From a virus: a stretch of 64,000 bases of DNA. Within the stretch, counting starts at the first letter, position 1. Each line of letters opens with the position of its first letter. The notes under the pieces are model-generated. The model saw only the letters and a program-made list of their open reading frames with translations, searched no databases and was not told the origin of the DNA. Shown piece after piece: positions 4,604 to 43,100 of the stretch. Both the position numbers and the translations under genes were made by a program. The stretch spans positions 1 to 64,000 of the IMG/VR virus record IMGVR_UViG_3300033145_002388. One strand, 5' to 3'.

Positions 4604-4618
4604 ATTAATACTTTTAAA

Positions 4619-5611: not shown

Positions 5612-5620
5612 ATAAAAAAA

Positions 5621-5812: not shown

Positions 5813-5828
5813 TTTAATAAGAAAATTT

Positions 5829-7611: not shown

Positions 7612-8785
7612 TCCTACTGCAACAACTGGGTTTGCTAGAGTATTACGTGAAATATTCACTAAATTAATTAAATTTAAAAATCCTGAAATAGCCTGGCTTG
7701 GAGTTAACTACTCAGGTTCTCCTCATAATTTTCCATTTAAAATATATCCAGCTCAAGAACAACTTGTTAAATTTCCTGATATAACTGGGATAAAAAGATT
7801 ACCTGGTTTTATAGAAGAATTTAAACCAGATGTTCTTTTTATTTTACAAGATTTATGGATGTTTAATCGATCAACATCAAGATTATCTAATTTAAAAATG
7901 ATTGCCAAAGATAAAGGAAGGCCATTTAAAATTGTTTATTATTTTCCTGTAGATGGTGAAGTCCATCAAGATTGGGCCGATTCTTTAGACATAGCTGATA
8001 TTCCAATTACCTATACTCAGTGGGCTAAGAACCAATGTGTAAAAAAGAATCCCAAATTAAAAGATAAACTTCAAGTTATTCCACATGGTGTAAATACCAA
8101 AACTTTTTATCCTATTCAATTAGATAAAACTAAATGTTTTACTTTTACTAATATAGGAAGAAACATGCAACGCAAACAATTAGCTTTAGGCTTAATTGCT
8201 TTATCTAAACTTAAGTTAAAGGATGTAAAAAATCATAAAATGTATATTCATGCTCAACCAGATGAATTCGGAATATCACTTTTTAAAATTGCTAAATCAT
8301 TAGGATTAAAATATGGGTTTTTAGATGATGATGGAAATTATGATGTACTATTTCCTGAGTTTGGATTTACAGAACATAAAGGAATTTCTGATAAAGAATT
8401 AAATAAAGTTTATAATGAAGCAGATTGTTTTTTTTCAACTACAGTTGGCGAAGGGTGGGGGCTTCCATTACTTGAAGCTGCTGCCTGTAAAAAACTTCTT
8501 CTGGTTCCAGAAATAGAACCATTAATAGAAAATTTAAAAGATCGTGCAATTTTTTATAAGACTAATGGCTGTGTAACTTTTGAAAGTGATTTATCATTAA
8601 TAAGACCTATTCCAGACATAGATGATTTAACAAATAAAATGGAATCTATATTGCGTAATTCAAAAAAATATGATAAATTAAAGCAGAATGCTTATGACTG
8701 GGCTCAAAGTTTAAGTTGGGAAAAAGTTTTTCAAAATTATTGGCTTAAAATATTTAAAAAAATTTATGACTTATATGGATTATAA
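7586..8785 (+). CDS. GT4-type glycosyltransferase, 399 aa
   Basis: It starts with ILIWGDSPTATTGFARVLREIF, a typical GT4 N-terminal donor/acceptor loop. IPHGVNTKTFYP marks the linker to the second Rossmann domain. TFTNIGRNMQRKQ and ADCFFSTTVGEGWGLPLLEAAAC (the E-G-x-G-L-P-x-x-E-A signature) mark the nucleotide-sugar site. The length is normal for the family. The donor sugar is unknown. It is part of the glycan module 6.6-13.0 kb. Confidence 0.9.
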   Translation: MKILIWGDSPTATTGFARVLREIFTKLIKFKNPEIAWLGVNYSGSPHNFPFKIYPAQEQLVKFPDITGIKRLPGFIEEFKPDVLFILQDLWMFNRSTSRLSNLKMIAKDKGRPFKIVYYFPVDGEVHQDWADSLDIADIPITYTQWAKNQCVKKNPKLKDKLQVIPHGVNTKTFYPIQLDKTKCFTFTNIGRNMQRKQLALGLIALSKLKLKDVKNHKMYIHAQPDEFGISLFKIAKSLGLKYGFLDDDGNYDVLFPEFGFTEHKGISDKELNKVYNEADCFFSTTVGEGWGLPLLEAAACKKLLLVPEIEPLIENLKDRAIFYKTNGCVTFESDLSLIRPIPDIDDLTNKMESILRNSKKYDKLKQNAYDWAQSLSWEKVFQNYWLKIFKKIYDLYGL

Positions 8786-19830: not shown

Positions 19831-20949
19831 ATGTATCCAGTAAATTTAAAGCAACTTAATGAGTTGCTTCCTTATTATTACAAGTTAAACAAACCTTTGT
19901 ATTTATGGGGAAAACCAAGTACTGCAAAGTCTTCTATTATTAGACAATTTGCACAAGAAGAAGCGGTTAGACAAAAATTAAAATATTCTGAAGATGAATT
20001 TGGTCCAGATATCTTTACATGTAAAGTAATTCCTTTATCACAATTTGATGCTCCAGATTTAAGAGGAATGCCAGAAATAAAAAACAATACAACTGTATTT
20101 ATTCCAGGAGCAGAACTTCCTCGGGATGGCCAAGGAATTATTTTCTTTGATGAAATGAATTTAGCTGATGAAATTGTTCGTAAGAGTATGTATATGTATA
20201 TTTTAGAGGGAAGATATTCTAACCTTCCTCCTGTTGTAGACAAAGAAGGTAAATTAAAATATTGGAGAATTGCTGCTAGTAATGATGAAAGTGATTTTAG
20301 TAATGTTGGAAGATTAAGATTAGCTTTACTTAGAAGATTTCATCATTTAGAAGTGGTACCTGACTCAAAAGAAATTACAGATTATTTTTCTAAGATAGGG
20401 GGAAATCCAATGGTGATTGCTTTTTTACTTAATTATCCATCTGAATTATTTCCTCAACCTTATGATGAAAAGATGCTTGAATTAAAAGCTAATCCTTTTC
20501 CATGTATGTGGGAATCAATATCTGATTTTATGAATGCAAATCCAAAAATTAAATCTTCTCAATTAAGAATATTTGTTTCTTCTGCGGTTGGTAATGGCGC
20601 AGGCGCAAAATTTATAGGATTTATTACACTAGCTTCTAAATTAAAAATAGATGATTTAATAAAGAATCCGAAATTAGAAATTGAAAAAATATCTAAAGAA
20701 CCTGAAAAAATTTCATTGCTGTATGCAGTAATTGCTACTTTACAAGATAGATGGAATCATAATAAATTAACTCCAGCTCAAGTCGAAGGAGTTATAACAT
20801 TCCTAGATTTAGAATTTCAAACTGCTTTTTTGAAAATGTTAATAGGAAATAGTAAAGGAAAAAGAAGATTGCCGAAACTTTTAGAATGTCCAAAAATTGT
20901 TAAGATAATGGAAAATTTAGGAGTCTATTTTGGTGATGATAATGAATAA
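19831..20949 (+). CDS. MoxR-type AAA ATPase, 372 aa
   Basis: Walker A is GKPSTAKSS (residues 27-35, Ala in place of the last Gly). QFDAPDLRGMPE is the MoxR-like loop after the first strand. Walker B is GIIFFDEMN (about residues 106-114) followed by ADEIVRKSMYMYILEGRY; sensor 1 is RIAASNDESD, and LRLALLRRFHHLEV carries the arginine finger region. MoxR ATPases act with VWA proteins as chaperones or assembly factors, and the next gene is such a partner, overlapping by eight bases. Confidence 0.88.
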   Translation: MYPVNLKQLNELLPYYYKLNKPLYLWGKPSTAKSSIIRQFAQEEAVRQKLKYSEDEFGPDIFTCKVIPLSQFDAPDLRGMPEIKNNTTVFIPGAELPRDGQGIIFFDEMNLADEIVRKSMYMYILEGRYSNLPPVVDKEGKLKYWRIAASNDESDFSNVGRLRLALLRRFHHLEVVPDSKEITDYFSKIGGNPMVIAFLLNYPSELFPQPYDEKMLELKANPFPCMWESISDFMNANPKIKSSQLRIFVSSAVGNGAGAKFIGFITLASKLKIDDLIKNPKLEIEKISKEPEKISLLYAVIATLQDRWNHNKLTPAQVEGVITFLDLEFQTAFLKMLIGNSKGKRRLPKLLECPKIVKIMENLGVYFGDDNE

Positions 20950-22141
20950 AGAAAGATTTATGAAAGCAAAAATTCAAATGTTAGTTGATCAACCTTTCTT
21001 TGGACAGCTAGCTTCTTATTTAATTCCTATTGTAAATGATAAAATTTGTCCAACAATGGGTGTTAATCAATTGGGAGAATTATTTGTAAATTCTAAATGG
21101 GTTGATGCTTTAGCTTTTAATGAATTGAAAGGAGTTCTTATGCATGAAATATTACATTTAGCTTTCTTGCATCCTGTAAGATCAAAAGTTTTTGATAAGA
21201 AATTATATAATATTGCTGCTGATTTAAAAATAAATGATTTGTTATTAAATGGAGAAAAATATAAAGTAAATTTGCCGAAGGATGGATTTCTTCCTAATTA
21301 TAATCATAGTTGGGAAATGGATAAAATTAAAATAGAAAAAATTGACGAGAAAACTACTGAACAAATTTATTATGAATTAGAAAAAGTTTATGAGACTTTG
21401 AAAGATAAAAAATATAGACAAGATTTAATAATTGTTTCTGATAGAGATCAAAATAAGGAGTCTAAATCAGGATCTAAGTCACAATCAAAAAAGTATTCAG
21501 AAATTTCAGCAGAAAAATTACAACAAGCTAAAGATTTATGGACCGATAGAGTTAATTCAATTAAGATTCAAGGACTTTTACCAGGAGAAATTTCAAGAGC
21601 TTTAAATTCTTTAAGAGCGCATAAAATTACTTGGAATTCTTGGTTACACGGAAGATTTGCTCGATTAATTAAAGAAAGATCTTGGAGTCGTCCAAGTAAA
21701 CGTTGGCTTCCTTGGTATTTTCCTGCTTCTACTAAAGTTAAAGGCTTACGTTGTGTAATAGGAGTTGATACTTCAGGTTCAATTTCAGATAAAGAATATT
21801 CGGAAATTATTTCCGAACTTTATGGAATCTATGTTGATTACAGAGGTGCTGTTGAAATGATTGTACTTGGTTGTGATTCTAAAGTACATAATGTTTATAA
21901 TTTCAAAGATAATGAACAGGAGAAATTAAAGAAGATTAAAATGACTGGAGGAGGAGGAACAGATTTTCGTCCAGTATTTAATTGGATTAAAACAAAATTA
22001 AGACAACCAGTCGATTGTCTTATATATTTTACAGATGGGTGTGGAAGTTTTCCTCAAAATTCTAATTTACCTTTTGAGGTGATTTGGGTTATTACTTCAA
22101 ATATTGAGCCCCCATTTGGAAAAAGATTAAGTCTAAAATAA
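20942..22141 (+). CDS. DUF2201-type metallopeptidase-like protein with VWA domain
   Basis: The 399-residue form starts MNKERFMKAKIQM; upstream starts (20930, 20936) lie inside the previous gene. The N-terminal part has LMHEILHLAFLHP (HEILH at residues 68-72) as in DUF2201_N. A helical middle with a Ser/Lys-rich linker follows. The C-terminal VWA domain has CVIGVDTSGSIS (MIDAS D.S.S, about 273-282), VLGCDSKVHNVY and TGGGGTDFRPVF. It is the expected partner of the upstream MoxR ATPase. One palindrome copy lies inside the VWA coding region. Confidence 0.85.
   Translation: MNKERFMKAKIQMLVDQPFFGQLASYLIPIVNDKICPTMGVNQLGELFVNSKWVDALAFNELKGVLMHEILHLAFLHPVRSKVFDKKLYNIAADLKINDLLLNGEKYKVNLPKDGFLPNYNHSWEMDKIKIEKIDEKTTEQIYYELEKVYETLKDKKYRQDLIIVSDRDQNKESKSGSKSQSKKYSEISAEKLQQAKDLWTDRVNSIKIQGLLPGEISRALNSLRAHKITWNSWLHGRFARLIKERSWSRPSKRWLPWYFPASTKVKGLRCVIGVDTSGSISDKEYSEIISELYGIYVDYRGAVEMIVLGCDSKVHNVYNFKDNEQEKLKKIKMTGGGGTDFRPVFNWIKTKLRQPVDCLIYFTDGCGSFPQNSNLPFEVIWVITSNIEPPFGKRLSLK
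21799..21818. repeat. 17-bp palindrome, copy 2
   Basis: TTCGGAAATTATTTCCGAA here is a full 19-bp palindrome around one central base. It is inside the VWA domain and read as S-E-I-I-S-E. The Ser codons TCG and TCC are rare in this genome. Confidence 0.7.
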
Positions 22142-25561: not shown

Positions 25562-27184
25562 ATGAATAGATTGAAAAAAAAAGATACTGCCATTTTTAAA
25601 TGGTTAGACGATACTGGTATTTTAACTGATAGGGGAATGCCATTTGAATTTAAAGATCATGCTTTTATTAGGGACTTATTTAGTAATTTCAACAAAAAAA
25701 TTGTAGTTAAAAAATGTTCTCAGATTGGTGTTTCATTAGCATTACTTTGTAAGATTCTTTATTTATCTGATGTAATGGCAAAAAGAACTTCAACTCTTTA
25801 TACTTTACCAACTGATGATGATGTTAAAGATTTTGTTAGAACTAAATTTGATCCGATTGTTTTAGGTTCTAATCTTAGTAGATTTGCTGAAGGTGTTAGA
25901 AAAGAAGATAAAGTTTATTCTATTCAATTAAAAAAGATTGCTGATTCATTCTTTTATTTTAGAGGTTCAAGGTCAATGTCTAGAGCTTTAAGTGTTTCAA
26001 TTGATATCTGGATAGGAGACGAATGGGATTATCAGGAACAGGGAATTAAAGAAATGTATACCGAAAGATTAAAAGGTTCGGATTCTTTAAGAATAAATTG
26101 GATGGTAGGTAATCCTACAATTCCTAATTATGGAATAGCAAAAGAGTTTGAAGATTCAACTCAGAATTATTGGTATGTTACTTGTCCTATTTGCAAGCAT
26201 GTTCAACGTTTGGTTTGGCCAGACTCAATTGATAAGGAAAGAAAAACATTTGTATGTCGTAGCTGTAATCGTCCACTTTCAGATGATGATAGAAGAAAAG
26301 GATTTTGGAAACCCGTTTATCCCGATAGAGAAATGGTAGGTTATTCTTTTAATCGTTTAATGGCTCCATGGTTTTCTGCACAAGATATTTTAGATGATTT
26401 TCAAAATAAAAAGAAGGAAAATTTTTATAGATTTGTTTTGGGTGAAGCTTATGAAGGAAGTGGGATTGATGTTAAGTCTAAATTTAAAACCTTTTTGACT
26501 GATTCTAAATTAAAAGAAGGAAAACGGATTATGGGTATAGACCAAGGAGATAAATTTTTTGTGACTAGCGGGATTGCCGGAAAGTCATTTAGGATTATAG
26601 ATTATAATGCTGAAACTGAATTGCCTGCTGATATTAATGATATGATTTCGACATTAAAACCTGATTTAATTGTAATGGATGCGCTTCCAAATAAACATTT
26701 AGGGAGGATTTTTCAAAAGCAATATAGTAAAACTAAATTCCTTTTGGCTAATGAAAGAGATAGATCTCTAAAAGTTTCTGAACCAATAATAGTTGATTAT
26801 AAAACTGGAATTGTTAGCGCAGACAGGACTATGATTTTAGATGATATGTTTGAAACTTTAGAGAAAGGAATTTTAAAAATAAATAAAAGCGTTTCTCATC
26901 AAGATCTTTTTAAAAAGCATCTTGGAAATATAATACCAGAGGAAAAAGAAGTTAATGGGAGTTTTAAAAGAAGATATAAGAAAATAGGTGAGGATCATTA
27001 TGCATTTGCTTTATCATTTTTTACTATTGGTGCATCACTTTTAATGCCAATTAAAATTGAAAAAAAGGAAATTAAAAAAGAGGAAGAAAAGAAAGTAAAA
27101 ACTTTTATGGAAGATCCCGATTTCATAAAAGCATTAAGAAGAAACAAAGATTCTGAATCGTGGGATTTAATTAAAGAGATTTAA
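25562..27184 (+). CDS. terminase large subunit (GpA type)
   Basis: The start is MNRLKKKDTAIFKWL at 25562; an upstream in-frame Met at 25517 lies in the preceding gene. Features of GpA-family terminases are the ATPase P-loop variant KKCSQIGVSLA, DIWIGDEWDYQ (Walker B region), a zinc ribbon with CPICKH and CRSCNR (about residues 200-240), and RNase H-like nuclease strands IMGIDQGDKFFV, LIVMDALPN and DHYAFALSF. At 540 residues its size is normal. It packages DNA into the prohead through the portal encoded next. Confidence 0.92.
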   Translation: MNRLKKKDTAIFKWLDDTGILTDRGMPFEFKDHAFIRDLFSNFNKKIVVKKCSQIGVSLALLCKILYLSDVMAKRTSTLYTLPTDDDVKDFVRTKFDPIVLGSNLSRFAEGVRKEDKVYSIQLKKIADSFFYFRGSRSMSRALSVSIDIWIGDEWDYQEQGIKEMYTERLKGSDSLRINWMVGNPTIPNYGIAKEFEDSTQNYWYVTCPICKHVQRLVWPDSIDKERKTFVCRSCNRPLSDDDRRKGFWKPVYPDREMVGYSFNRLMAPWFSAQDILDDFQNKKKENFYRFVLGEAYEGSGIDVKSKFKTFLTDSKLKEGKRIMGIDQGDKFFVTSGIAGKSFRIIDYNAETELPADINDMISTLKPDLIVMDALPNKHLGRIFQKQYSKTKFLLANERDRSLKVSEPIIVDYKTGIVSADRTMILDDMFETLEKGILKINKSVSHQDLFKKHLGNIIPEEKEVNGSFKRRYKKIGEDHYAFALSFFTIGASLLMPIKIEKKEIKKEEEKKVKTFMEDPDFIKALRRNKDSESWDLIKEI

Positions 27185-27188
27185 ATTT

Positions 27189-30100
27189 ATGGAGATTAAA
27201 GATTTCTCAAGTCAAATTAGTGCAGCTCATGAAGTTCATAATAATTTTTTGACTGCAACTGAAAAAAATATTTCTTATTTTTTTTGGGGTAAAGATCAGG
27301 AAATTATTTCTTATAATCAGGGAAGATATGCATATGGAGATTTTATTAGTTCTATGGAATCAGTTACTCCTTCTGCATTTAATTCTTGTTTAATTCCTTT
27401 ACAAGTAATGTTTCAAGAAATGGGAAATACGATGATATCTGTTAAGGTTGATCCAGTTGGCGCAATACGAAAAATTAAAGGAAGTGAAGAGTTTGCGAAT
27501 ATGCTTTCAAAAAAACTTTCTGATCTCTTTAAAAATTTTTCTTCATTGGGACTTTCTTCATTATTTGAAATGATAAATCATTCTTACTCGGTTTTTTATT
27601 TAGATCCGATATTGAAAAGATTTTATTCTTTATCAGCTTCAGATTTTATTCCTGGGAATCCGGAGATAGCCAATATTCAAGATCAGCCTTTTTTAATTCG
27701 TTTAACTTTTCCATCCAAGGCTGATCTATTAAAAGGAATTGCTTCTCCAGCTTCAGATCCCAGAGTTAACAGTAAAGTTTATTCTGATATTCAAAAATTA
27801 GAAGATTGTACTTCAATTAGAATTCAAGATCTATGGAGTAAAGATTTAAATTCTAGAATTTTAACTGTTCCAACTGGAGAAGTTTTATTTAAAGATCAGT
27901 TTCCCGAACCTTTTATTTATCCTTTTTTTAAAGTCAATGAATCTTTAAGTCAATCTCAGTTTTATGCTTTGCCTTTAATGAGTAAAGCCATTCCTTTAAT
28001 GGAAAAATATAAAAAGATAACCTTGTCAATTGATCATGCTTCTCATGCTCAAGCTAGAGCTTTGTTAGTCTATGACAAGGAAGCACAGATAGATATCAAT
28101 AGACTTAAATCTGAGCTTCAAGAAGGAGATAAAAATATTATTGTGGGTAAAAGTGAAATAGGAGATATTAGTTATAAACAACCAGCACAGCTTCCTGAGT
28201 ATGTTTTAATCCATCAACAAAATTTACTTAATCAAATTTTACAATTATTTGGAACTGGTTCAATTGCAAGGGTTGGATCAGTTCGTGAGAAAGGTGCAGT
28301 AGAAGCTATGATTAGAGCATCACTTCGTCAATTTGTTTTTTATTCAAATCGAATTAAAGATGCGTTAGAAAACTTAGCTGATTATTATTTAAAATATATA
28401 CAGACTCATCGATTACAATTTATAAAAGAATTTGATTCACTTTCATCTTCTGTTTTAAGAGAAGGAACTTTTAAATCTACTATAGAATTACTTCCTTCTT
28501 CTTCTTCCAGGACTATGATGGAACAAACATTTATTTTAAGGAAAAGAAAAGAAGGCCTGATTTCTAGAAAACAATCATTAAAAGAATTAGGTTATCCCAA
28601 TCCAAATAGAATTAGAGATGAAATAGAAACTGAGATGCTTGAGCAAAGAGACTTAGCAGAAAAATTAAAACAACAACCTTTAAGTCTTAATCAAAAGATT
28701 TCTCAAACTCTTTCATCAGTTTTGGATTATACTCCTGATATTATTTTATCTGGTTCAGACAAAGCGGTTGTTCAAGTCAAAGAAAAAGATGTTGAAAAAA
28801 CTAGATTTCTTTTATCTGATTTGGAAGAGAGAATTTATATAGATGGAACTAGATCTGAAAGTGCTCCAAATATTATAGAGTCTGAACCAAAACCGGAAAT
28901 AATTTCCGAACCTAAAAAAGAAAAGGAAATTGAAAAGCCAGAACAAAAAGAAGAAGTAAAAAAAGAAAGTTCAATTGTAAAAAAATCTTCGCAGGCTCCA
29001 GAAGTTTCTAAATTTAAACAGATTTTAGAAAAACTTATTGAATTATCTAAGATGGGAATTAAAAAGGAATCGGTTGGAAAGTTTATTCAAAAATATCCTG
29101 GACTTTATTTAGTAGATCCCCATGCTCCAGATATTTATTCTGGAAAAAAATTAATGATTATCAAGTCTCGTTTATTTGATATTATAGATAAACCTCAAAT
29201 ATTACTTGGTTCTAAATATGCTTATGGAATTTTAATTCCTAGAATAGTATTTAAGATTGGGCCTAAGCGATTTAAAGAAACTGAAAAGTATCATTTAATT
29301 TCTGATGAACAAAGAAAAAAATGGTGGGATGAAAAGACTTTATATGGATACTTATTTGAGTTTCACAAATTTGAAGAACCAGTTGAATGGGAAAGGAAAC
29401 CTGGTATTAAAAATTTTGTAAAAGCTCCTATTCCTTTACGAACAGAACATACTGGAGTTCCTTATACTGGAGATTTAAAACCAGTTTCTTTAAGTCCTTT
29501 TAAGCTTCCTCCTCCAGCTAAACCAGAAAAGAAAGCTTTTCAACCTTATGAAATTTTTTCTCCTGCTAGATTAAAAGAAATTATTCCTGCTGGAACTTAT
29601 AATGTTTCAGAAAAAATAGATGGAATAAGAACTTTTTGTTGGAAAGATAATGAAACTATAAAGTTTTTTACTGATACGGGAAATGAAATTAATGCACAAA
29701 AATTAATTTTGGTAGCCGATTCAATTCGTAATTTATTCAAAACTCAAAGTGTTTTATTAGATGGTGAACTTTCTTTAAAAGGAGTTAAACATGAAAATGT
29801 TACAGGTTTTATTCATAAAAAATCTCCTGTTTCAAATGAAGAAAAAAAAGCTTTAGAGTTTGTGGTCTGGGATATTCTTTATCTTAATGGAAAATCTTTA
29901 GCTGATAAACCTTTTATAGATAGATATAGATTACTTAATTTAAAAATTAAACCCGGACAGACAAAAGGAAAAATTCGTAGAGTAAAAACTACTAATGCTT
30001 CTCGAGATCAGTTAGCTAAAGCTAGTAAATTAGTAACTTCTAATGAAGGAGTAGTTATTAGAGATATTGATGCTGCTTATTGGGCAACTCATTCTATGTA

Positions 30101-31526
30101 TAAATGTGCTCATGGTGATACTTATATCTTTACAGATCGTGGAATGGTAAGAGCAAAGAATATAAAGGCTGATGATAAAATTTTAAATGGTCAAGGAAAA
30201 TTTGTGGGAATTAAAAACATAATGAAAAGAAAAGTAACTTCATTAGATAAAATAATGGAACTAAAAACTTTTGGAACTTTCCCTGTTAAATTTACTTCTG
30301 ATCATTTAATTAAATCAGGCAAAAAATGGATTGAATTGGATAAACTTAGGTTTAAAAGGGGGGCTTTAAGAGAAAATTATGTTAGAAAAGCTAATGACTT
30401 TTTAAGTCTTCCTATTTATAAGCGATTAAAAGGAAAAATTAAAAGTATTAAATTAAGCAGAGTTCCAAAGTATGAAAAGGAAATAAAACTTTCAAAAGAT
30501 TTTTGGTGGCTAGTTGGATTAATTTTAGCAGAGGGAAGTTGGAATAAGTCTGTATTTATATCTAACAAAAATTTATCTCTTTTAAAGAAAGCTCAACAGA
30601 TAGCGATCCAGACCCTGGGAATAGAAGAAGGAAAAATTATTAAGATGAAGAATGATTGTTATGTTTTAACTATATTTGATATGGGATTTGCTAACTGGCT
30701 TGCTCAAAATTTCTCACAAGGAAAAAGAAATGGTTGGCATATAGGACATACTAAAATTCTCCCCCAGTTTATAGATTATTTAACTAAAGAGGAATTTCAA
30801 TCTTTATTTGATGGATGGTGGATAGGAGATAAAGGATGTTCTATTGATAATCCATTAATTATGAAATTCTATTTATTAGGAAGAAGCCATGGAATGCCTT
30901 TAAGTATAAGCTTTTATGATTCTAAATATAAGAACAAGTCTTTCATTTATTGGAAAATTAGAATTCTAGATAAAATGTATAAGAAAAATTGGGGACGAAT
31001 TAGATCTATTGTTACTTATAATAAGCATTCAGAATTTCTTTATGACTTTGAATTAGAGGGTGAATGTCCAGAAATTGCTTCTGCTATAATAGTTCATAAT
31101 TGCAAGAAAACAGCTGATTTAGATGTTAAGGTTATAGCTGTGGAAAAAACTAAAAATAATCTTCCTATTTTTCATTGTGTTTTGAGAGATGGAACTTATA
31201 TGGGACAAACTTATGCACAAGGAGAAGTAAAGGCCAAGCCAGGTGACACCATTAGAGTTATGGTTGATCACTTTACTTTAAGACCAGATGGAGCTTTGGG
31301 TTGGTTTGCGCCTCGTCCTAAAGATATAAAAGGAAAACTTGGGGCTACAACTTCTTTAAAACAAAAGGGAATTTCTGGACCTGATACTTTAGCATTTGTT
31401 AAGGAACATTATCTTTCTCATGGTGGCACTGAGGCGACCTGGAAAGAATGGTTGCCTAAACATGCTGCTTGGAAGGTCAAAGAAAATAAAAGATTAATTG
31501 CTAATGTTAAAAAAGTTTATGGCTAA
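27189..31526 (+). CDS. portal protein fused to ATP-dependent DNA ligase, split by an intein
   Basis: The single 1445-codon frame has four parts. Residues 1 to about 560 look like a phage portal (KKITLSIDHASHAQARALLV; FGTGSIARVGSVREKGAVEA) and sit between terminase and scaffold. Residues 565-605 are an E/K/P-rich linker. Residues about 605-780 form an unassigned domain with DEQRKKWWDEKTLYGYLFEF. From about 785 comes a covalent nucleotidyltransferase ligase: motif I EKIDGIR with K809, LLDGELSL, EFVVWDILYL, EGVVIRDID, then an OB domain (GDTIRVMVDHFTLRPDGALG). Residues 973-1304 are an intein inserted in MYK/CKK of motif V. The spliced product would be 1113 residues. No internal stop or strong internal ribosome binding site is seen. 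Confidence 0.85.
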   Translation: MEIKDFSSQISAAHEVHNNFLTATEKNISYFFWGKDQEIISYNQGRYAYGDFISSMESVTPSAFNSCLIPLQVMFQEMGNTMISVKVDPVGAIRKIKGSEEFANMLSKKLSDLFKNFSSLGLSSLFEMINHSYSVFYLDPILKRFYSLSASDFIPGNPEIANIQDQPFLIRLTFPSKADLLKGIASPASDPRVNSKVYSDIQKLEDCTSIRIQDLWSKDLNSRILTVPTGEVLFKDQFPEPFIYPFFKVNESLSQSQFYALPLMSKAIPLMEKYKKITLSIDHASHAQARALLVYDKEAQIDINRLKSELQEGDKNIIVGKSEIGDISYKQPAQLPEYVLIHQQNLLNQILQLFGTGSIARVGSVREKGAVEAMIRASLRQFVFYSNRIKDALENLADYYLKYIQTHRLQFIKEFDSLSSSVLREGTFKSTIELLPSSSSRTMMEQTFILRKRKEGLISRKQSLKELGYPNPNRIRDEIETEMLEQRDLAEKLKQQPLSLNQKISQTLSSVLDYTPDIILSGSDKAVVQVKEKDVEKTRFLLSDLEERIYIDGTRSESAPNIIESEPKPEIISEPKKEKEIEKPEQKEEVKKESSIVKKSSQAPEVSKFKQILEKLIELSKMGIKKESVGKFIQKYPGLYLVDPHAPDIYSGKKLMIIKSRLFDIIDKPQILLGSKYAYGILIPRIVFKIGPKRFKETEKYHLISDEQRKKWWDEKTLYGYLFEFHKFEEPVEWERKPGIKNFVKAPIPLRTEHTGVPYTGDLKPVSLSPFKLPPPAKPEKKAFQPYEIFSPARLKEIIPAGTYNVSEKIDGIRTFCWKDNETIKFFTDTGNEINAQKLILVADSIRNLFKTQSVLLDGELSLKGVKHENVTGFIHKKSPVSNEEKKALEFVVWDILYLNGKSLADKPFIDRYRLLNLKIKPGQTKGKIRRVKTTNASRDQLAKASKLVTSNEGVVIRDIDAAYWATHSMYKCAHGDTYIFTDRGMVRAKNIKADDKILNGQGKFVGIKNIMKRKVTSLDKIMELKTFGTFPVKFTSDHLIKSGKKWIELDKLRFKRGALRENYVRKANDFLSLPIYKRLKGKIKSIKLSRVPKYEKEIKLSKDFWWLVGLILAEGSWNKSVFISNKNLSLLKKAQQIAIQTLGIEEGKIIKMKNDCYVLTIFDMGFANWLAQNFSQGKRNGWHIGHTKILPQFIDYLTKEEFQSLFDGWWIGDKGCSIDNPLIMKFYLLGRSHGMPLSISFYDSKYKNKSFIYWKIRILDKMYKKNWGRIRSIVTYNKHSEFLYDFELEGECPEIASAIIVHNCKKTADLDVKVIAVEKTKNNLPIFHCVLRDGTYMGQTYAQGEVKAKPGDTIRVMVDHFTLRPDGALGWFAPRPKDIKGKLGATTSLKQKGISGPDTLAFVKEHYLSHGGTEATWKEWLPKHAAWKVKENKRLIANVKKVYG
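28894..28910. repeat. 17-bp palindrome, copy 3
   Basis: CGGAAATAATTTCCGAA lies in the charged linker between portal and ligase parts, read as P-E-I-I-S-E. Flanking bases differ from the other copies. Confidence 0.7.
30105..31100 (+). mobile_element. LAGLIDADG intein in the ligase domain
   Basis: The 332-residue insert begins with Cys (block A, CAHGDTYIFTDRGMVRAKNI) and has block B-like FTSDHLIKSGKKW. Two LAGLIDADG motifs follow (WWLVGLILAEGSW and LFDGWWIGDKG). It ends with blocks F and G, FLYDFELEGECPE and IIVHN, followed by Cys of the extein. All residues needed for splicing (Cys1, block B His, penultimate His, terminal Asn, +1 Cys) are visible. The insertion lies at the conserved motif V of the ligase, where host selection against loss is strongest. 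Confidence 0.93.
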
Positions 31527-32193
31527 TTATACTAAATTTTATATCAAAGGAGAACGAGATGGAAAACCAACTCGTATCTTCGAATCCAATCTTAATAAAG
31601 CTATTAAAGCTGCTAGAAAAATTGGAATGAAACCAACCTCTAAAGATGCTTATGGCTATGATGCAAAAAAAAAGAAATGGGTTCCTCTGTTAAAGGCTTC
31701 AGATCCTCGTAGAGCAACTGCTAAATCTTTTGCTATAAAGGATTATTTTGATAAGATAGCAAATCCTCGTAGCGTAACTGCTAAATCTTTATTGAAAAAA
31801 ACTCCAGTCTTATTAAAGAAACAATATGAAAAAAAAGATTTAATTAAAAGTAGAGGAAAAAAAACTTCTAAGTATTTGATGCCAATTGTTAAATTAATGG
31901 GTGAAAAAATTAAAACGGCTAAGTCAGAGACTGAAGCTAATCAAGCACGTAAAGCATTATTAAAAAGATTTTCTAAAGATTTGCCATCTACAATAATGGG
32001 AAGGAAAAATTATAATACTGCGGTTAAGAATATTGATAATTACTTAAAGAAAGGAAATTATGTAGGAGCCTCTAATTATATGGTAGGACAATTGTTTAAA
32101 TTAGAAAATCAATTAAGGGGAACCGGAAGTTATAAATATGTGGCAGACAAACTTGGTGATTGGTATGGAACTCATTTAAAATTTGATGAATAA
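31519..32193 (+). CDS. hypothetical basic protein, 224 aa
   Basis: It starts MANYTKFYIKGERDGKPTR at 31519 and overlaps the end of the portal-ligase gene. It is strongly basic and helical, with an internal duplication (DPRRATAKSF / NPRSVTAKSL, about residues 60 and 80). It may bind DNA or be a head component. No family is recognised. Confidence 0.6.
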   Translation: MANYTKFYIKGERDGKPTRIFESNLNKAIKAARKIGMKPTSKDAYGYDAKKKKWVPLLKASDPRRATAKSFAIKDYFDKIANPRSVTAKSLLKKTPVLLKKQYEKKDLIKSRGKKTSKYLMPIVKLMGEKIKTAKSETEANQARKALLKRFSKDLPSTIMGRKNYNTAVKNIDNYLKKGNYVGASNYMVGQLFKLENQLRGTGSYKYVADKLGDWYGTHLKFDE

Positions 32194-32194
32194 T

Positions 32195-32509
32195 ATGAAT
32201 AAAAAAATTTTTCTCCTCACTTCTGTAGTGAGAAGGTTAGCAAATTTAAAAGGAAATAGAGATAAGATTTTTGTAGTGGGAGGATTGGTTACTCAGGGAA
32301 GATCTAGTCATGATATTGATATCTGTATTAAAGATCAAAAAGATATTCCAATTGTTAAAGATATTCTTGGTCCTTATCATAAAGATGTACATTTTTCAAT
32401 TCTCAAAGGTAATCGGCCCAGTTCTAAAATTTATCTTACAATTGATAAAAAAAATTTAGAATTGGGATCTAAAGGAATGTATAATGAAAATAGAAACAAT
32501 AAAACCTAA
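32195..32509 (+). CDS. Pol-beta-type nucleotidyltransferase-like protein, 104 aa
   Basis: The start at 32195 (MNKKIFLLTSVVRRLANLKG) follows the preceding stop. KIFVVGGLVTQGRSSHDIDICI (residues about 26-47) is the G-G-x-x-x-x-G-x-S-x-H-D-I-D signature of the nucleotidyltransferase fold, with the two metal-binding Asp. The protein is a minimal catalytic domain. Next to a ligase and a phosphoesterase-like gene it might fill or tailor DNA ends. It overlaps the next gene by 26 bases. Confidence 0.68.
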   Translation: MNKKIFLLTSVVRRLANLKGNRDKIFVVGGLVTQGRSSHDIDICIKDQKDIPIVKDILGPYHKDVHFSILKGNRPSSKIYLTIDKKNLELGSKGMYNENRNNKT

Positions 32510-33401
32510 AAGTGGAACTCATTTTAAAACTTATAAAGGAACAAAAAGAATACCAACTAAAGCAGAGTTTTTGAGACGAGCTTTAAAGAAAGCTCACGGA
32601 CCTTTAGATGTCCATGAAGAATGGATTGAGTTTATTCCTGGAAAATTTACTGTTCAATTACATGGATGGTTTGATGAGGGAAGTTATGGAAAGGGAAAAG
32701 AAGCCTTGACAAAAATTCAGTCAATTGTTAAGATGGCATTGAAGAATCATGAAGATCCAATTATTCATTTAACTAAAGGAAAGTTTCATTATGATATTAG
32801 AATTTTAAAAAAGGGATCCTTAACTTGGTTTGGTTTTACAACATTTAGGTTGCCGTGGACTGGAACTCTTGAAGATAAAGTGATGGGAACCGTTAAAGGC
32901 TATCAGTCCTTAGTTAAAGGATCTAAAGCTCTTAATAAATTTTTAAGAGAGAAAGCTGAAATTGCTTTGACTAAAGAAGGAACCGCTGAAAGAAGAGATC
33001 GTCCTAAATGGCTTAGAATTAAAGCAGAATATTGGAAACCTCCTGGGATTGGAACCCCCAGTGGACAACCGGGAATAATGATTGCATTAGAATCTTTACA
33101 ACCTTGTATAGTTCACAGAAGAGAATTAGATTTTTTAGATATAACTTTTATAGGAAAATATTTTAATGGAAGATATTTTGATAGATTAGTAGAAAGAAAA
33201 ATAGCTAAAAAATTTATTCTTGGATTTTATTTATGGCGAGCAAAGAAAGCTTTTGATATTTCTAAAATGAAAAATATTAGTATTGGAAAACAAAAGCATG
33301 AACCAATTGAAGTTAGATTTCAAGATAATTATTTAAAGATTCAATCTCCTTTAAAGCCTTCATGGAAATTTAAACGCGGGGGGAAAATCTTAACAACATA
33401 A
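32484..33401 (+). CDS. LigD 3'-phosphoesterase-like protein, 305 aa
   Basis: The segment GKFHYDIRILKKGSLTWFGF (about residues 100-119) closely resembles HYDLRLE.dGvLkSWA of the LigD 3'-phosphoesterase domain. An upstream His in FTVQLHGWFDEG could be the first metal ligand, and ESLQPCIVHRRELDFLD with FNGRYFDRLV forms the C-terminal part. LigD-PE trims 3' phosphates and ribonucleotides before end joining. With the ligase and nucleotidyltransferase this would make a repair set. The similarity is short, so confidence is moderate. Confidence 0.55.
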   Translation: MKIETIKPKSGTHFKTYKGTKRIPTKAEFLRRALKKAHGPLDVHEEWIEFIPGKFTVQLHGWFDEGSYGKGKEALTKIQSIVKMALKNHEDPIIHLTKGKFHYDIRILKKGSLTWFGFTTFRLPWTGTLEDKVMGTVKGYQSLVKGSKALNKFLREKAEIALTKEGTAERRDRPKWLRIKAEYWKPPGIGTPSGQPGIMIALESLQPCIVHRRELDFLDITFIGKYFNGRYFDRLVERKIAKKFILGFYLWRAKKAFDISKMKNISIGKQKHEPIEVRFQDNYLKIQSPLKPSWKFKRGGKILTT

Positions 33402-33692: not shown

Positions 33693-34484
33693 ATGAAAAT
33701 TAAATTTGGGGAAAAAAAAGATCCTGAAAATACAGAAAATAAAGATGTTAAAGAAACTGAAACTATAGATTCTGATAATGTGAAAGAAAAAGATTCTACA
33801 GAAATTAAAGAAGATCCTATAAAAACAGTAGTTGAAACTGTTAGAAATATTCAAAAATCTGTAGAAGAAATAAAAGAATCTAATTCTGGGTTGAAGTCTA
33901 GACTTGATTTATTTGAAGAAGAAAAAGAAGAATCATTTAATTCTTCTGGTGATGATTTATTTAATGAAGCTGAAAAAGAAGTTGTTGAGGAAGAAAAAAT
34001 TAAATCTGAACCAATTGAGTCTGATAAAAAAGAAGATGGAATTGATGAAGCAATTAAACAAGATCAAGATTTTAGAGATTCAATTACTGAAAAGCAAAAG
34101 AAAATTATTGAAAGACAGGAAATGATTGAAAAAAAAATTGATGAAGATAATTTGAATAGAGAAGTTAATGAAGCAATAAAAGAATTTCCTTCTATTAACA
34201 AAACTGATATTTTAAGAGAAATTGAAAATGATCCAAGTAAAACAGCATCTGAGATTGCAGAATCTTTAGATGCGCAACGTATAAAAGATCGCGCTGCTAT
34301 GCGTGATGAGATAAAAAAGGAAATAGAAGAAGAGCTTACTAAAGAGCAAAAAGGAAATGTCTCTGTACCTCAAGCTTCTGGTTCCTCTAATCCCAACTCT
34401 TCTACTCAAAATCCAGCTGAACCTGAGGGCGATCCTTGGGAAGAAGCTAGGAATAAAGCTAAGTCGGAGATAACAGAAGAGTAA
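33693..34484 (+). CDS. scaffolding protein-like acidic coiled-coil protein, 263 aa
   Basis: The protein is highly charged and acidic, with long helices (residues about 45-85 and 120-220) and a Ser/Pro/Asn-rich C-terminus (VPQASGSSNPNSSTQNPAEP) ending in a charged helix. Its composition, size and position immediately before the major capsid gene fit a scaffolding protein, which guides prohead assembly and then leaves. The call rests on context and composition, not on a specific motif. Confidence 0.72.
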   Translation: MKIKFGEKKDPENTENKDVKETETIDSDNVKEKDSTEIKEDPIKTVVETVRNIQKSVEEIKESNSGLKSRLDLFEEEKEESFNSSGDDLFNEAEKEVVEEEKIKSEPIESDKKEDGIDEAIKQDQDFRDSITEKQKKIIERQEMIEKKIDEDNLNREVNEAIKEFPSINKTDILREIENDPSKTASEIAESLDAQRIKDRAAMRDEIKKEIEEELTKEQKGNVSVPQASGSSNPNSSTQNPAEPEGDPWEEARNKAKSEITEE

Positions 34485-34512: not shown

Positions 34513-35502
34513 ATGTCCTTAATAGCTGAACTTAATTCTGCGACTTTAAAGTATTATTCTCCGGTAGTCGTTGATCAGATCTTTAAATATTCTCCTTTAC
34601 TCTATCGCATTTTTAAAATTGCGAAAGAAGGTAATTGGGGGATGGCTCAGACAACTAGTGGTGGACGAAAAATTGCTGAACCCCTTGAATATCAAGAAGC
34701 TGCGCAAGCCAGTAATTCTCATGGTTCTTATGATTCAAGTGATACTTGGGCTGCTGATGATCAAGATGTATTGACTCTAGCTGAATACAGTTGGAAGCAA
34801 TATCATTCAACCATCAAAATTCCAAATCTCACTGTTTCAGAGAATGCTGGTAAAGCTAGAATTTTTGATATTGCTGCAATCAAGTTGAAGAATGCTGCTA
34901 AAACTTTGAGAAAAGATTTGGCAACTGATCTTTTTGGAGATAATACTGGTGAAAGTGGAAAAAATATTTTAGGCTTACAAGCACTAGTCGCTGCAACAGG
35001 TACTGTTGGTGGAATTGATAAAAGTAGTTATTCTTGGTGGCAGGGAAAGGTAAATACAACTGGCGGAATTCTTGACTGGTCGATCTTAAATGATCTCTAT
35101 GTTGGGACAAAACGCTATGGTGATGGAGTTCCTCTTTCTATTATTGTATGCTCAGATGGAGTTATGCAAAAATATGAAGATACTTATTCCAAAGTTGTGT
35201 CTGCTACTAATTCAGGAGTTAGATTAACCCTAGGTAGTAAAGTTTTAGATGGTGGTTTTCGCGCTTTTTCTTTTAAAGGTATTCCAATCGTAAGTGATCC
35301 ATTCTGTGGTTCTGGGCTTTTGTTCGGATTAACAGAACAATTCTTGCATGCTAGAATTTTAAAACAATTCGGAACCCAAGGTTGGAAATCAATTGAAGAT
35401 CAAGGCAAAGATTATCTTCAAGCAACTTATAAAGGTTATTTGGCCTTTACTTCAAGTTGTGCTAGAAAGCAGTCAATGGCTAGTGGCTTGACAGAAGCAT
35501 AG
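34513..35502 (+). CDS. major capsid protein (HK97-type)
   Basis: The 329-residue protein has the usual features of phage major capsid proteins of this size: AELNSATLKYYSPVVVDQIF at the start, SGGRKIAEPLEYQE (E-loop region), TLAEYSWKQYHSTIKIP, RIFDIAAIKLKNAAKTLRKD (spine helix), SDGVMQKYEDTYSK, and FSFKGIPIVSDPFCGSGLLF (P-domain to A-domain). It follows the scaffold gene and is closed by a strong terminator, consistent with its high expression. Confidence 0.87.
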   Translation: MSLIAELNSATLKYYSPVVVDQIFKYSPLLYRIFKIAKEGNWGMAQTTSGGRKIAEPLEYQEAAQASNSHGSYDSSDTWAADDQDVLTLAEYSWKQYHSTIKIPNLTVSENAGKARIFDIAAIKLKNAAKTLRKDLATDLFGDNTGESGKNILGLQALVAATGTVGGIDKSSYSWWQGKVNTTGGILDWSILNDLYVGTKRYGDGVPLSIIVCSDGVMQKYEDTYSKVVSATNSGVRLTLGSKVLDGGFRAFSFKGIPIVSDPFCGSGLLFGLTEQFLHARILKQFGTQGWKSIEDQGKDYLQATYKGYLAFTSSCARKQSMASGLTEA

Positions 35503-36512: not shown

Positions 36513-37180
36513 GAGGTTCATATGAAATTGTTCTTTATATAGACGAAGATAAATTTTATATAAAGAGATGGATTAAATGTTTTCATAATATTCGATATTT
36601 AAGTATTAAAGAAAGGATTAAATATATTAGATCTTGGGGGACTCCATCAATTAGTATTCTATTTAAGAATGCAGATTTAAATAGATTTAGTTGGATAATA
36701 AGAAAGTATAAATTTTATCCTAGTTATGTTAGAATTTATTTTGGGGTTACTTTAGCAGATTTTATAACAGATAAATTATTTAGTCCTCGAACCAAAGCAA
36801 TTTTATTTATTCAAGCTCCAGTAAAATTTGCTAGTTCAAATCAGGATAGTCTAATTAAAGCTTCTCATTTTTTTTCTTGTATAATGTTTCCATTATTTAG
36901 AAGAAATTGGAGAAGTGCTAAATCTAAATATCCCGAGCTTGACGCAATTTATAATGGTGGTAAGATAGATAATGATAATTGTTTTGAAGAAGTAGGAAAG
37001 AAATTAGGATTATCTTGTTGTTATTTTCAATCTGATTATAAAAAATTAATTCCAAAAAAACCATATTGTTTTGCAATTTGTAGAAGTGAATTAAAAAATT
37101 TAAAGTTAAATCTAGATGGTACTATAACACCAACTAAAAATAAAAGAGTTTTACTAGATAATTTTTATGACGTTATTTAA
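36509..37180 (+). CDS. hypothetical protein, 223 aa
   Basis: The protein is basic, with many Tyr, Lys and Ile residues (YEIVLYIDEDKFYIKRWIKC) and ASHFFSCIMFPLFRRNWRSA in the middle. No domain is recognised. Its end overlaps the start of the giant gene by 14 bases, so the two are coupled. Confidence 0.55.
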   Translation: MRGSYEIVLYIDEDKFYIKRWIKCFHNIRYLSIKERIKYIRSWGTPSISILFKNADLNRFSWIIRKYKFYPSYVRIYFGVTLADFITDKLFSPRTKAILFIQAPVKFASSNQDSLIKASHFFSCIMFPLFRRNWRSAKSKYPELDAIYNGGKIDNDNCFEEVGKKLGLSCCYFQSDYKKLIPKKPYCFAICRSELKNLKLNLDGTITPTKNKRVLLDNFYDVI

Positions 37181-40100
37181 GTTGTTTAAAGAACAAAACT
37201 TGAGTCTACCTTCAGTAGAAAGAAGGAAACAGCTATACTCAAGATATAAGCTAGGCACAGATTATAAAGGATCTTTTGAACAGAATACTTTACTTTCTAA
37301 AGCTATTAAAAAAGATCCAAGAGAATTTAATATTTTTGTTAATGCTTTAAAGTTTCCTTTAGCTCCAACTATAATTAAATCATCTCCTGTTAAGTCTAAA
37401 GTTAAATCTGTAGCAAAACTAGAACCTGTAAAGATTTCTAAATCCTTAAAGAAAGAATCATTTGAATATGATCGTTTGACTCCTGGTAAAACCGTAGGAG
37501 ATTGGCTTAAAGCAAAGAAAATAAAATTTGAGGACTTTCAAAAACTTAATCCCGCTTATAAAACCCAGGATTTTAAAGTTGAGAGTCCTTTTAAAGTTAA
37601 GATTCCTAAATTAGATTCTGTTTTAATTAAAGAATTTCCAAAAGTAAAAGAAATTCTTGATAAAAAATCAGGAGAAATTAAAGATCCTGCTGATATTCAG
37701 AAGATTTTAAGACAATCAATATCCAATTTATTAATAGGTGGCATTAAAGCATTGCCAGAAATTATTGTTAAGGGAAAAAATTTACTTCCAGCTTATACTA
37801 AAAATATTTCTGAGGGTATTAAACAAACTAAAATATCTGTTGATAAAAAAAATTTAGCTACTGATCTTGGTCAAAAAGAAAAAGCTTATGCTGCTAATTG
37901 GGATCCTGTTAAAATATTAGACACAACAGCGAAAACTGTTATTTCTTTGTCAGTTATGAAGAAAGGTTTCCGACCGATTTCCAGTGATTTAATTTCATTA
38001 ATTAAAAAATCACAAAAATTAAAATTAAAGGAAAAGCAAGAAAAAGAAAGAAAATTAGTAATTCCTTCCGTTGAAGATTTTTTAGCTGGGGAAAAAATAG
38101 ATTTATCTTCAGAAGAAAAAAAGATTATTACTAAACCAAAAGAAGAAAATGAAAGTCCAGAATATACTACTGCTAGATTAAAAAATATTATTTCTAAATT
38201 AGATTCTATTAAAAAAGATATTCAATTACAACAATCAAATTTAAAAGCCGAAGATAGTTCCATTATTGGCCTTATTAACAAGGAGGGAAAATTTTTACCT
38301 TGGGAAACTTTAGAAAAAGATACAGGATTGGCAAAAAATCTTCAATCTGAAATAGAAGCAATGAGTAAAAAAATTGGTCCTGCTACTAATAGAATGCAAG
38401 AGAATACTAATGAATCTATTAAGTGGCAAAATATTCTTTTTAAAAATTTAGATAAATATTCTGATGTTATATTTAATTTAATTTCAGATCCAGAAGTTAT
38501 AAAGGATCCAACAATTTTAACAAAGGTTCAGACATGGTTTCCAAATCGTGAAAGTTTTTTATTGGGAGTAACTAAATCTCCCACTGATGTTTTGGTTTCT
38601 ACGCCTGAAGTTAAGAAATTACAAAAAGAAATGGAGAGTCTTTTAACACCAGAGATGAAAGAAATTATTGATAATGCTTCTAAATTAGATCCTGAAAATG
38701 ATGAACAAGCTGATAAATTTTGGTTAGGATTAAGTTTGGATCAACAAAAATCCTATCAGAGATTAATGACTCTGAATCGTTTAATTGGGGAAAAAGATGA
38801 TGCAACCAAACTTCAAAAAACCTGGGCTTTATTAGAAGATCCTTATTTTCAAAAAACAATTTTAGAAAGTGCTAAATATTTATCTGAAGATCAAAAGAAA
38901 ATTATCCAGCCTGTTATAGAAATTGCTAAGTTAAATGCAGAAAGAACTATCTTATGGCCAAAAGTAGATAATGAAATGAAATCTCAAACAGAAGAAATAA
39001 AAAATAAATATACTGAGTATCAAAAATTAGTTGAAGGAATTAATCAAAGAATAGTAGCTTTGGGTGATCCTAAAAAACAGGGCACACTTGCTCATTGGTT
39101 AGTTGATTACGGTGATGCTATTCATGAGTATCAAAAAAGTTTATTAAAAGCTGAACTTAAGTCAGAAAAAAAAGTTGCTGAATTTCAGGATGCATATATT
39201 GAAGCTAGAAGTTTTAAATCTGTATCTAGGAATTTCATGAATGCAATTACTTCTTTCTTGAAGAATCATAGTTGGGAAATAAAAGCTGAAGATGAAAAAG
39301 GTTTCTTTTTAAAACTTAGAAAAAGTCAAGAAGAAATTTTAGCCAAGGATAAATTAAAAATAATGAGTCAAGTTGTTTTTCCTACTGGTTTTAAAAATTA
39401 TTTTATAGAAGGAGGCTATAAATATGATCTTCCTATAGCCATTACTCCAATTGGATATGAAGTCACAAAGAATGCTTTTTCTGGATTACAATGGATCTGG
39501 GATAGAACCTTGCCAGCTGCTGAGGTTGCTGTTACTGCTTTATCTCAAATAGGTTCAACTTTTTATCAAACAGTTTTAGAAGAAACGGGGGATTTGTGGG
39601 GTATGGAAAGAAAAAAAGTAGAAGAGTTAACTACAATTGGAGAATTTCCTTTTAAAGAAAAAAATTTAGTAAGTAAATTATGGAATTTAAATTGTTTTAA
39701 TTTTTTTAATTTATATGATGCTGCCAATTTAACTGATTTACAAAAGATTGCACCTGGTAAACGATTTGAAATTCAAAATCTTCCTAAATGGATAGATTTA
39801 AAAAAGGGCGGTTATCTTCCAACTCTTTATTCAAATTATAGACATCCTCGTTCTTATCAAGAAATTATGATAAAAAGCAGAATGAAAGCAGTTGAGGTTT
39901 TACCTTCTGAATTTAAAATTATTCAAGAAGAATTTTTAAGCTTAAATAATCTGAACAAGGATAGTGTTCTTAGTATTGGCGATAGGATTTTAATTCCAAC
40001 TCAGGGTTATATTGCGCCTAGAAATTTAATTAAACCTAATGAAAGAACAAAAATGGAGCAAACATCAGATGGTAGATTAGCTTTGCTTGCAATAGATTTT

Positions 40101-43100
40101 ATAGGATGGGGCTTTCTTGACCCTACTTCAATTTTTTGGACTAGAATAGGATCCTTGTCTAAATCAATTTTTAAAAATATTTGTCCTCAACTTTATAATC
40201 AATTAAAGACTCGTAAAGATTTATATAAATTTGCAAATGAATATTCTAGGGCTAGTGATTTAGCAGAGGATTTAATGAGTTTTGCTTCTTTAGATGCCAT
40301 ACCTGGGGGCAAATTTAAAGAAATGTTTCCCTCTTTGATTAATAGTCGTAAAGCTTTTATGAGCTTAAAAGTTTTAGATAATTTAGATCCAAAAGTTTTA
40401 GCTAAGATTGAGAAGTATGCGCAAGAAGGAGAATTATGGAGAAGTGGATATTTTTCAAAGTTGTTTATTGACAATGTAAAAACTAAAGTTGGGAAGGACA
40501 AACTTAAAACATTTCAAGATTCTTTAAGGGCTTTAATGTTAGAAGGAAAGATTCCTGCTGCTTCTGATAATTTAGTTTGGGAAGTTTTAAATCAATTTGG
40601 TGGTAACGGATTTGATTTAATTAAACAGATTGCAAATAATGGTCCGAAAGCTTTAGAGATTGGTTTGAATAAAGTTGTAAAAAATTATCATTCAGCAAGG
40701 TTAAGAGAATATTTACTTAAGAAAAATTTAGATAAAACTTTATATGGACTTTCTCCGTTAGAAAGAAATCAGGTTTTAAATTTATCTCAGAAGACTGAAG
40801 CTCAAATTACTAAAGAATTAAATTTAATGAGAGAACTTGGGAAGGGAAAAACATTTAAAGAAAGATTTCTTATTCGGCCAGAATTTACCCCCAAATCTAT
40901 AAATAAAATTGAGCAAGCTGTTAAGCAAACTAAAATAAATTTACTCAATGCAGAAAAGATTTTAAAGGAAAGTAAGGTTACTATTAATTTACCTGATAGC
41001 TATAAGATTTTATATAATCTTAAGAAAGAAGGGAAAAATTATTTTGATATAGTTAATAAGCAATTTGTAGTAGAACAGTTAGGAAAGAGAGGGGTACCGG
41101 GCTTAATTAAGGATTGGTATAGTCAAGTTGGTACAAAGTTAGTAACTTATCTTGATAATATTACAGGTTATTTTTCTGAAAGTACTTTAATGGCTAGAAA
41201 AAATTTAACTTATTCTGAAATAGTTAATGGTATTAAACAAGGGCATGGTGGCTTAGGTTTACGATTATTAGATACAGTTAGATTTAAAGATAAGGATATG
41301 ACAGTTAGAGCTTTAATGAAAGAATTAGAAAAAGTAGCAAAGGGCCAAAAGTCAAAAGCTACATTTCTTTCTACTAAATGGCCTATTAAAATTCCATTAC
41401 AAAAGAAACAATCTTCTTCTTTACTTGATGCAATTTATAAAAGTATAAAGTTTGATTCATTTAAAAATAAAGATTGGGTTGGAATGAATTCTTATAGTTT
41501 TAAAGAATTATTAGGTAAGGTTCAAAAGTTAGATAAAAATTTTGTGCCTGTTTCAAAAACTAAAGATGTTTATAATACTTTACCTTTGCAATGGTTTAAT
41601 GCTAATAAAAATACTCAGGGCTATGCTGTATTTGGCGGACTTCCATCTCGTCATGGAATGTCTAAAATAATTAAAGTAAAATCTAAAGAAAAATTAATTA
41701 TTCAAGATCCAAAAGATTTTAAAGCTTATTTTGAAGAAGCAGTAAATCTTTATTTTTTACAAAAATATTCTCCATTAGAATATAAGCGTTATCAAGATGA
41801 TTTAGTTCAGATGGTAAAAAGACAAACTGATAAACAATTAAAAGCTTGGTTAACCCCTCAAGATAGAATTGCTTTACTTATTTTTGAAAATGAGAAAAAG
41901 GGAATTGCTTCTCTACCCAATTCTATTATAGATTTATTTGAATCTTTAACAGGTAGCGCTGATGATATTAAAAGATCTATAACTTTATTTTTAAATAAAA
42001 GAATGGGATTAGAAAAAGAACAAATCCTTGCTTCAAAAAAAGCTGAATTAATTAAATCTTTTAAAGCTCATGGAATTAAAGAACCAGAAAGAGAATGGTT
42101 ACTTTATAGAAGACGTTGGAATTTTGATTTAGTTATTAATCCTCAAGTTGAAGAGTTTGCAACAATTCATAATTTACTTTCAAAGTTTCCTATTTTAAGT
42201 TTCAAAAAAACTTCTAAATTAATTCCTGCTAAATATGTTACTAGATTAGAAAAAAATAGTTATCCATTTAGAAGCAGATATCCTAGTGAAATTGATAGAT
42301 TGTTTTATGAAATTCAACAGGGGGGTCGAAAAAGATTCTCGGAAATTATTTCCGAAAAAAAATCTTTACCTCAGAAAATAGAAGAGATAAAGAATATCAA
42401 AGCTGAAACCTTAAATATTCAAGCTAATAATTTTTTATTTTGTCCTTCTGCTTCCAAACTTCATACTGATAGAGATATTAGATTAGCTGTACAAAAATAT
42501 GGAAGTCGTGGGAATTTTATTATTCCAGGTGATTATAAAAATGCTGAGTATGCTAGAAAGAAATTTGAAACTTATTTGCCACAAGGAAGAGCTAAAGTAC
42601 TAAAAAAAGATTTTCAAAAAGGTAGTCAAACTCAGTTTGTTTTAAATCAACCTCAATTTATAGATGATCTTAAAAATGTAAATCAATTAGATGAAATGAC
42701 TTTGGGAGGAGTAATTCCTGAAAAAAAGTTAGCTGAATTTTGGGCTCAAATTCCAGAAGATCTTCCTAGCAGAAAAATTTTTAAAACTGGAAAATATTAT
42801 CCCTCAGAAACTATTGGTGCTGGGGTTAGGGCTAGTAAATTAAAAAAACTTGAAGACCAATTTGGAAAAAAAATTGCTAAACAAAAAATGGCAGATATTG
42901 AAAAAACAATGGCTGAACAAAAAAAATATTGGCTTCCTCAAAAAAAGTACAGTCTTGGTTATGATTATGATGCAATAGATGATATTCAAAAGAATATAAA
43001 TTTTGTAATGAAAGATGTTAATGATCCAATAGCTAAAGAATTTAAAAGTTGGATTAGATACGAAGAATTAGAAGAGTTAGAAAAAAATCATAAAGGAATG

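Follow-up and report, generated by a model that had tools for sequence, protein, structure and literature searches.

The stretch of DNA analysed here (hereafter the window) comprises positions 1 to 64,000 of the IMG/VR virus record IMGVR_UViG_3300033145_002388, which is 72,131 bp long. An ORF on its plus strand (27189-31526) stays open across 1445 codons without interruption. From the N- to the C-terminus, its product was assigned a P22-type portal region, a charged linker, an ASCH domain and an ATP-dependent DNA ligase with an intein (Table 1). A preliminary description of this DNA had proposed that a single frame without a stop joins portal and ligase and that no strong internal start separates them. 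Both points were borne out: the frame is open, and no start at the junction with a ribosome site is common to all relatives. For the latter reason, production of a free ligase from an internal start was rejected. The portal region sits between the terminase and capsid genes, and the major capsid gene lies about 3 kb downstream of the fusion gene.

Table 1. Genes and protein regions from the terminase gene to the major capsid gene of the window.
Feature	Position	Strand	Basis or remark
Terminase large subunit	25562..27184	+	phrog_675 E 1e-84; PF05876 E 7e-24; immediately precedes the fusion gene
P22-type portal region, residues 1-555	27189..28853	+	Profile-profile match and synteny
Charged low-complexity linker, residues 556-606	28854..29006	+	Whole-codon length differences among relatives, frame kept
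ASCH domain (PUA-like, nucleic-acid-binding type) and flanks, residues 607-781	29007..29531	+	Core at about residues 635-745
Ligase nucleotidyltransferase part up to motif V, residues 782-972	29532..30104	+	PF01068, motifs
Intein with LAGLIDADG-type motifs, residues 973-1304	30105..31100	+	Inside ligase motif V
End of ligase motif V, predicted OB domain and motif VI, C-terminal helices, residues 1305-1445, stop	31101..31526	+	
Conserved gene, no family match in the searches run	31498..32193	+	Follows the fusion gene; same place in L001 and L002
Minimal nucleotidyltransferase, GG...DID motif	32183..32509	+	Homologous to the ligase-fused one in other viruses
Probable LigD-type 3'-phosphoesterase relative, FHYDIR motif	32484..33401	+	Profile-profile P 0.0016
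Putative scaffold, charged	33693..34484	+	Position before the capsid gene and composition only
Major capsid protein	34513..35502	+	phrog_9953 E 1.5e-38; relatives in Myxococcus phage Mx8/Mx9 and others

Domains and conservation of the fusion protein

Searches of the portal region against Pfam, PHROGs, NCBIfam and PDB sequences returned no match, and hhalign comparisons with single portal families were not significant. Significance came after pooling eight P22-type portals, taken via capsid-protein relatives (Mx9, a Bradyrhizobium phage, MetMV and others) and terminase neighbours. Profile-profile comparison of this pool with the three fusion N-termini gave scores of 57-58.5 (P 2-5e-6) over 329-332 columns, and the alignment covers residues 137-489 of the fusion protein. 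Among 183 ORF families, the profile's own family excepted, the fusion ranked first (58.5) and another portal next (32.9); the best non-portal among the 182 other ORF clusters scored 25.7, the reversed control 16.1 and the best of 60 block shuffles 26.2. The profile match and the synteny together make the assignment of residues 1-555 to the P22-type portals a firm prediction. A lack of portal similarity in residues 1-560, which would have spoken against the preliminary description, was thus not observed. AlphaFold gave a pLDDT of 37.9 for the portal part, with only three sequences in the alignment, and of 39.7 for the ASCH-ligase part, which has too few homologues; the fold assignments given here do not draw on these models. 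The matching portals are those of Mx9, MetMV and TM7 phages (phrog_156/12082). Unlike the fusion, the portals of these phages carry no attached ligase in the records examined. The virus of the window shares a capsid-protein group with Mx8/Mx9.

Between portal and ligase, a domain at about residues 605-780 had been noted as unassigned. The domain is indeed present, but it can be assigned. In its family of 21 diverse members, eight match PF04266 (best 7e-6), the window member itself giving no match, and the family profile matches TTHA0113 (1wk2, 2dp9) from end to end with an E-value of 3e-4. By these similarities, the middle domain of the fusion is an ASCH domain.

The ligase matches PF01068 at residues 806-967 with an E-value of 5.9e-19, above the cut-off. 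Its motifs were located at 808-814 (EKIDGIR), 856-861 (LLDGEL), 894-899 (WDILYL) and 953-959 (EGVVIRD), and a further ligase motif, GWFAPRPKDIK, at 1371-1381. Motifs I, III, IIIa and IV are therefore intact, K809 of motif I being the predicted adenylated lysine, which upholds the earlier reading of an ATP-dependent ligase. Motif V (YK..CKK, residues 971-972/1305-1307) is split by the intein and completed by splicing. The C-terminus of the ligase is a beta-rich segment with weak Foldseek matches, mostly to OB-fold proteins, and an OB domain is likely there on this low-confidence model. A loss of ligase function was considered and rejected, given the intact motifs and strong purifying selection. 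The virus record holds no second PF01068 ligase, and most related records likewise hold a single one.

The intein spans 332 residues (973-1304), begins with C, ends with HN followed by C, and has LAGLIDADG-like motifs at 1108 and 1206. PF14890 matches it weakly and below the cut-off (E 0.0047). One relative (L002) has a collinear ORF of 1126 aa without the intein, in which MYKMKKTADL replaces MYKC...CKKTADL, and this empty site fixes the intein borders at 973-1304. The spliced protein was computed to have 1113 aa and 126.9 kDa. The intein is thus confirmed, and the mass agrees with the single spliced species of about 128 kDa expected in the preliminary description.

The same fusion was found in frame in two further IMG/VR contigs (L001 and L002), three contigs in total. 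Repeat scans for close relatives, whether queried with portal, ligase or junction, found these two each time and no others. The ASCH-ligase half is better conserved than the portal half, with identities to the two close relatives of 86% and 78% against 73% and 60%, and with NG86 dN/dS of 0.05-0.13 for ASCH and ligase against about 0.18-0.28 for the portal. The low-complexity linker evolves fast and has whole-codon indels, and its dN/dS is also below 1. By these ratios, all segments of the fusion are under purifying selection. An assembly chimera, or a stop or frameshift missed between two genes, is very unlikely, since the same in-frame junction recurs at 60-86% identity in three separate contigs, one of them without the intein, and since the linker has dN/dS below 1. 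A chimera at the linker or split genes in relatives had been named as findings that would speak against the fusion; the junction recurs in all three contigs and both relatives are fused. A close relative with two separate genes was not found, the collection holding only two close relatives.

End-repair genes and portal-side cassettes

The window carries the nucleotidyltransferase and the probable 3'-phosphoesterase as genes of their own, downstream of the fusion. The former is matched by a nucleotidyltransferase model built without the window's lineage (E 2.3e-5). The latter has no direct family match; in profile comparison, it ranks directly after all phosphoesterase-bearing families, suggesting that it is probably a relative of the LigD-type 3'-phosphoesterases. 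TIGR02779 gave a sub-threshold match in the window. In relatives, the phosphoesterase matches TIGR02777 (E 3e-4 in L027) and, in PDB, the archaeal proteins 3p43 (E 0.0014) and 3p4h (E 0.028), which we take to be LigD-type phosphoesterases. The fusion can be seen as one form of a wider portal-side cassette, described below, whose nucleotidyltransferase and LigD-type phosphoesterase point to end healing and joining, not to nick sealing alone.

The ASCH motif H.[IV][ST][DE]..RK.WW was scanned as degenerate DNA over viral and bacterial/archaeal contigs, a search that is blind to portals. It returned 38 stretches of viral contigs as against two of bacterial/archaeal genome contigs, both from archaeal MAGs. 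About 30 distinct viral loci were recognised in which ASCH, ligase, nucleotidyltransferase, LigD-type 3'-phosphoesterase and metallo-beta-lactamase domains occur in varied fusions, mostly located between portal and capsid genes. The ASCH ORFs are usually long fusions of up to six domains in shuffled order, in which N6-adenine methyltransferase is also present. Grouping at 80% identity gave 32 groups. ASCH is fused to a portal in five of them (three from the window lineage, plus L012 and the Methanosarcinales MAG L070), and the portal is the next gene upstream of the ASCH ORF in about 14, with L035 counted by its likeness to L019; the loci partly share ancestry, so that these adjacency counts do not represent independent events. 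Several more groups have a portal within a few genes, and most of the remainder are cut contigs. Capsid genes follow the cassette where the contig extends that far. Several PHROG families are represented among the portals (P22-type, 9232, 113, 12, 18178 and 146). In two loci (L012 and L024), the ligase-phosphoesterase ORF is set apart by a few genes but again precedes the capsid gene, and 20 of the 23 records searched hold a ligase match, the other three being short fragments.

A similar arrangement was found in ANMV-1 (KP703175.1, L082). Its product AJP62005.1 (1913-3193), deposited as 'MutT-like phage hydrolase', matches the portal family phrog_146 with an E-value of 2e-30, and lies 6 nt upstream of AJP62006.1, an ATP-dependent DNA ligase whose ORF combines nucleotidyltransferase, ligase and phosphoesterase. 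This ligase is portal-adjacent like that of the fusion, but it is separate from the portal, and no ASCH domain was found with it.

The viral cassette has a ligase and a 3'-phosphoesterase in common with the bacterial LigD/Ku system of non-homologous end joining (NHEJ). It differs in that a nucleotidyltransferase of another superfamily replaces the polymerase, Ku is lacking, and the parts are split over the portal and separate genes. Family scans recognised no LigD-type primase-type polymerase in the cassette, and Ku was found in none of the 23 records searched, the control search being positive in B. subtilis. For lack of Ku, a true NHEJ system was dropped as an explanation.

Two other fusion types were observed among these loci. 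In L031, an ORF of 1406 aa on the minus strand (4338-8555) encodes ligase and phosphoesterase, the latter domain seemingly interrupted by an intein (PF14890 E 2e-12). The neighbouring ORF joins a nucleotidyltransferase, ASCH and an XkdF protease in one protein. In L009 (3-1985), L019 (5305-7575) and L035 (4196-6505), ASCH is fused to a C-terminus that looks like an AAA-type ATPase (GKPGTGKTKTGK). These three ORFs adjoin a portal-sized gene, which in L019 is a phrog_113 portal.

Possible roles of a portal-borne ligase

The C-terminus of P22-type portals is located at the inner, capsid side. With this orientation, about twelve ligases would sit atop the portal ring and face the packaged DNA. Each portal subunit would bear at its C-terminus, on a flexible linker, a nucleic-acid-binding ASCH domain and a complete ATP-dependent ligase, once the intein has spliced out and restored motif V. 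The ASCH domain may hold nucleic acid while the nucleotidyltransferase and the probable 3'-phosphoesterase of the window mend ends and the ligase seals them. Ligases may be pre-charged with AMP, and a pre-adenylated ligase could seal one nick without ATP. Such action might take place during packaging, in storage or on entry into the next cell, as repair of nicks and breaks or as joining of ends to circularise the genome. Either mechanism of the preliminary description, sealing at the packaging vertex or delivery of the ligase with the genome, may therefore apply: the tether would favour action at the ring, and delivery would become possible if the linker were cut. We give an even chance to the proposal that a LigD-like, Ku-free kit heals and seals DNA ends or nicks and that its portal-tethered ligase acts on the viral genome, and we infer that the kit acts in or from the virion. 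Support comes from the presence of the fusion in three contigs, dN well below dS, the profile match of the portal, the recurrent placement of the cassette beside portals, including that of ANMV-1, the single PF01068 ligase of the record, and a domain set that combines healing and sealing. Against the proposal, neither Ku nor a LigD-type polymerase was recognised, and the loci partly share ancestry. A covalently tethered ligase, moreover, cannot enter a new cell unless it is cut from the portal, and shared expression from one operon might by itself account for portal and cassette being neighbours.

In an alternative reading, the ASCH-ligase part is polyvalent-type cargo, cut off in the linker during head maturation, kept in the capsid and ejected with the DNA into the new cell, where it would repair or circularise the genome or counter host nucleases. 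Passages of a study on polyvalent phage proteins describe portal or MuF proteins fused to PBECR, 2H phosphoesterase or InPase, including a portal-InPase fusion in BcepF1, and such fused enzymes are thought to be co-injected (Iyer et al. 2017, PMC5512222). The linker, of low complexity and evolving fast, would suit such a cut, and in one relative ASCH is joined to an XkdF protease. However, no maturation protease was recognised within the window, the linker has no known cleavage site, and the covalent link is kept in the close relatives, which leaves the cargo reading doubtful. The ligase could also serve general replication and repair, its fusion having arisen by read-through of neighbouring late genes and having no special meaning. 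It is the sole ligase of the virus record and a separate gene in most relatives. A replication ligase would normally sit among early genes, however, and in all three contigs the linker indels leave the fusion in frame. In addition, ASCH-portal fusions occur in two further lineages (L012 and L070), and cassettes accompanying portals of several families are placed between the portal and the capsid genes, which makes more than one accident. We consider this second alternative unlikely.

Enzyme-bearing portals are thus already known, and a portal-side LigD-like cassette is apparently undescribed. The fusion resembles polyvalent proteins in that an enzyme is joined to the portal, the gene belongs to the head module and travel with the virion is suggested; with portal, ASCH and ligase, it likewise combines several unlike domains in one head-module polypeptide. 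In the sections of PMC5512222 that treat such proteins, they are read as host-targeting effectors, and neither a portal-fused DNA ligase nor LigD-type end repair is named. The literature searched, in which most subscription journals and preprints are not covered, contained no portal-ligase fusion and no paper on phage ASCH with DNA ligase, in line with the earlier remark that a portal-attached ligase has no described precedent in phages. Portals are regarded as passive gates for DNA. With a ligase as part of the ring, and a recurring end-repair cassette beside portals of unrelated types, the packaging and ejection vertex would take on DNA repair as a further task. This could explain how nicked or broken genomes are handled, or how a genome is closed without host factors. 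More tentatively, and with somewhat less than an even chance, many archaeal and bacterial tailed viruses may carry in the virion, at the portal, a Ku-free LigD-like joining machine that repairs or circularises the genome passing the vertex, with the ligase here being covalently part of the ring.

Other genes of the window were recorded as well. A RecA of bacterial type (PF00154 E 1e-108) is encoded at 4619-5611 and hints at a bacterial host, though archaeal viruses also have related cassettes. A protein of 4577 aa with no Pfam match is encoded at 37167-50900, flanked by the capsid and the tail genes. Upstream of the terminase gene, a MoxR-like ATPase and a DUF2201 VWA/metallopeptidase form a pair at 19831-22141 (phrog_1297 and phrog_1314) that is kept in both close relatives.
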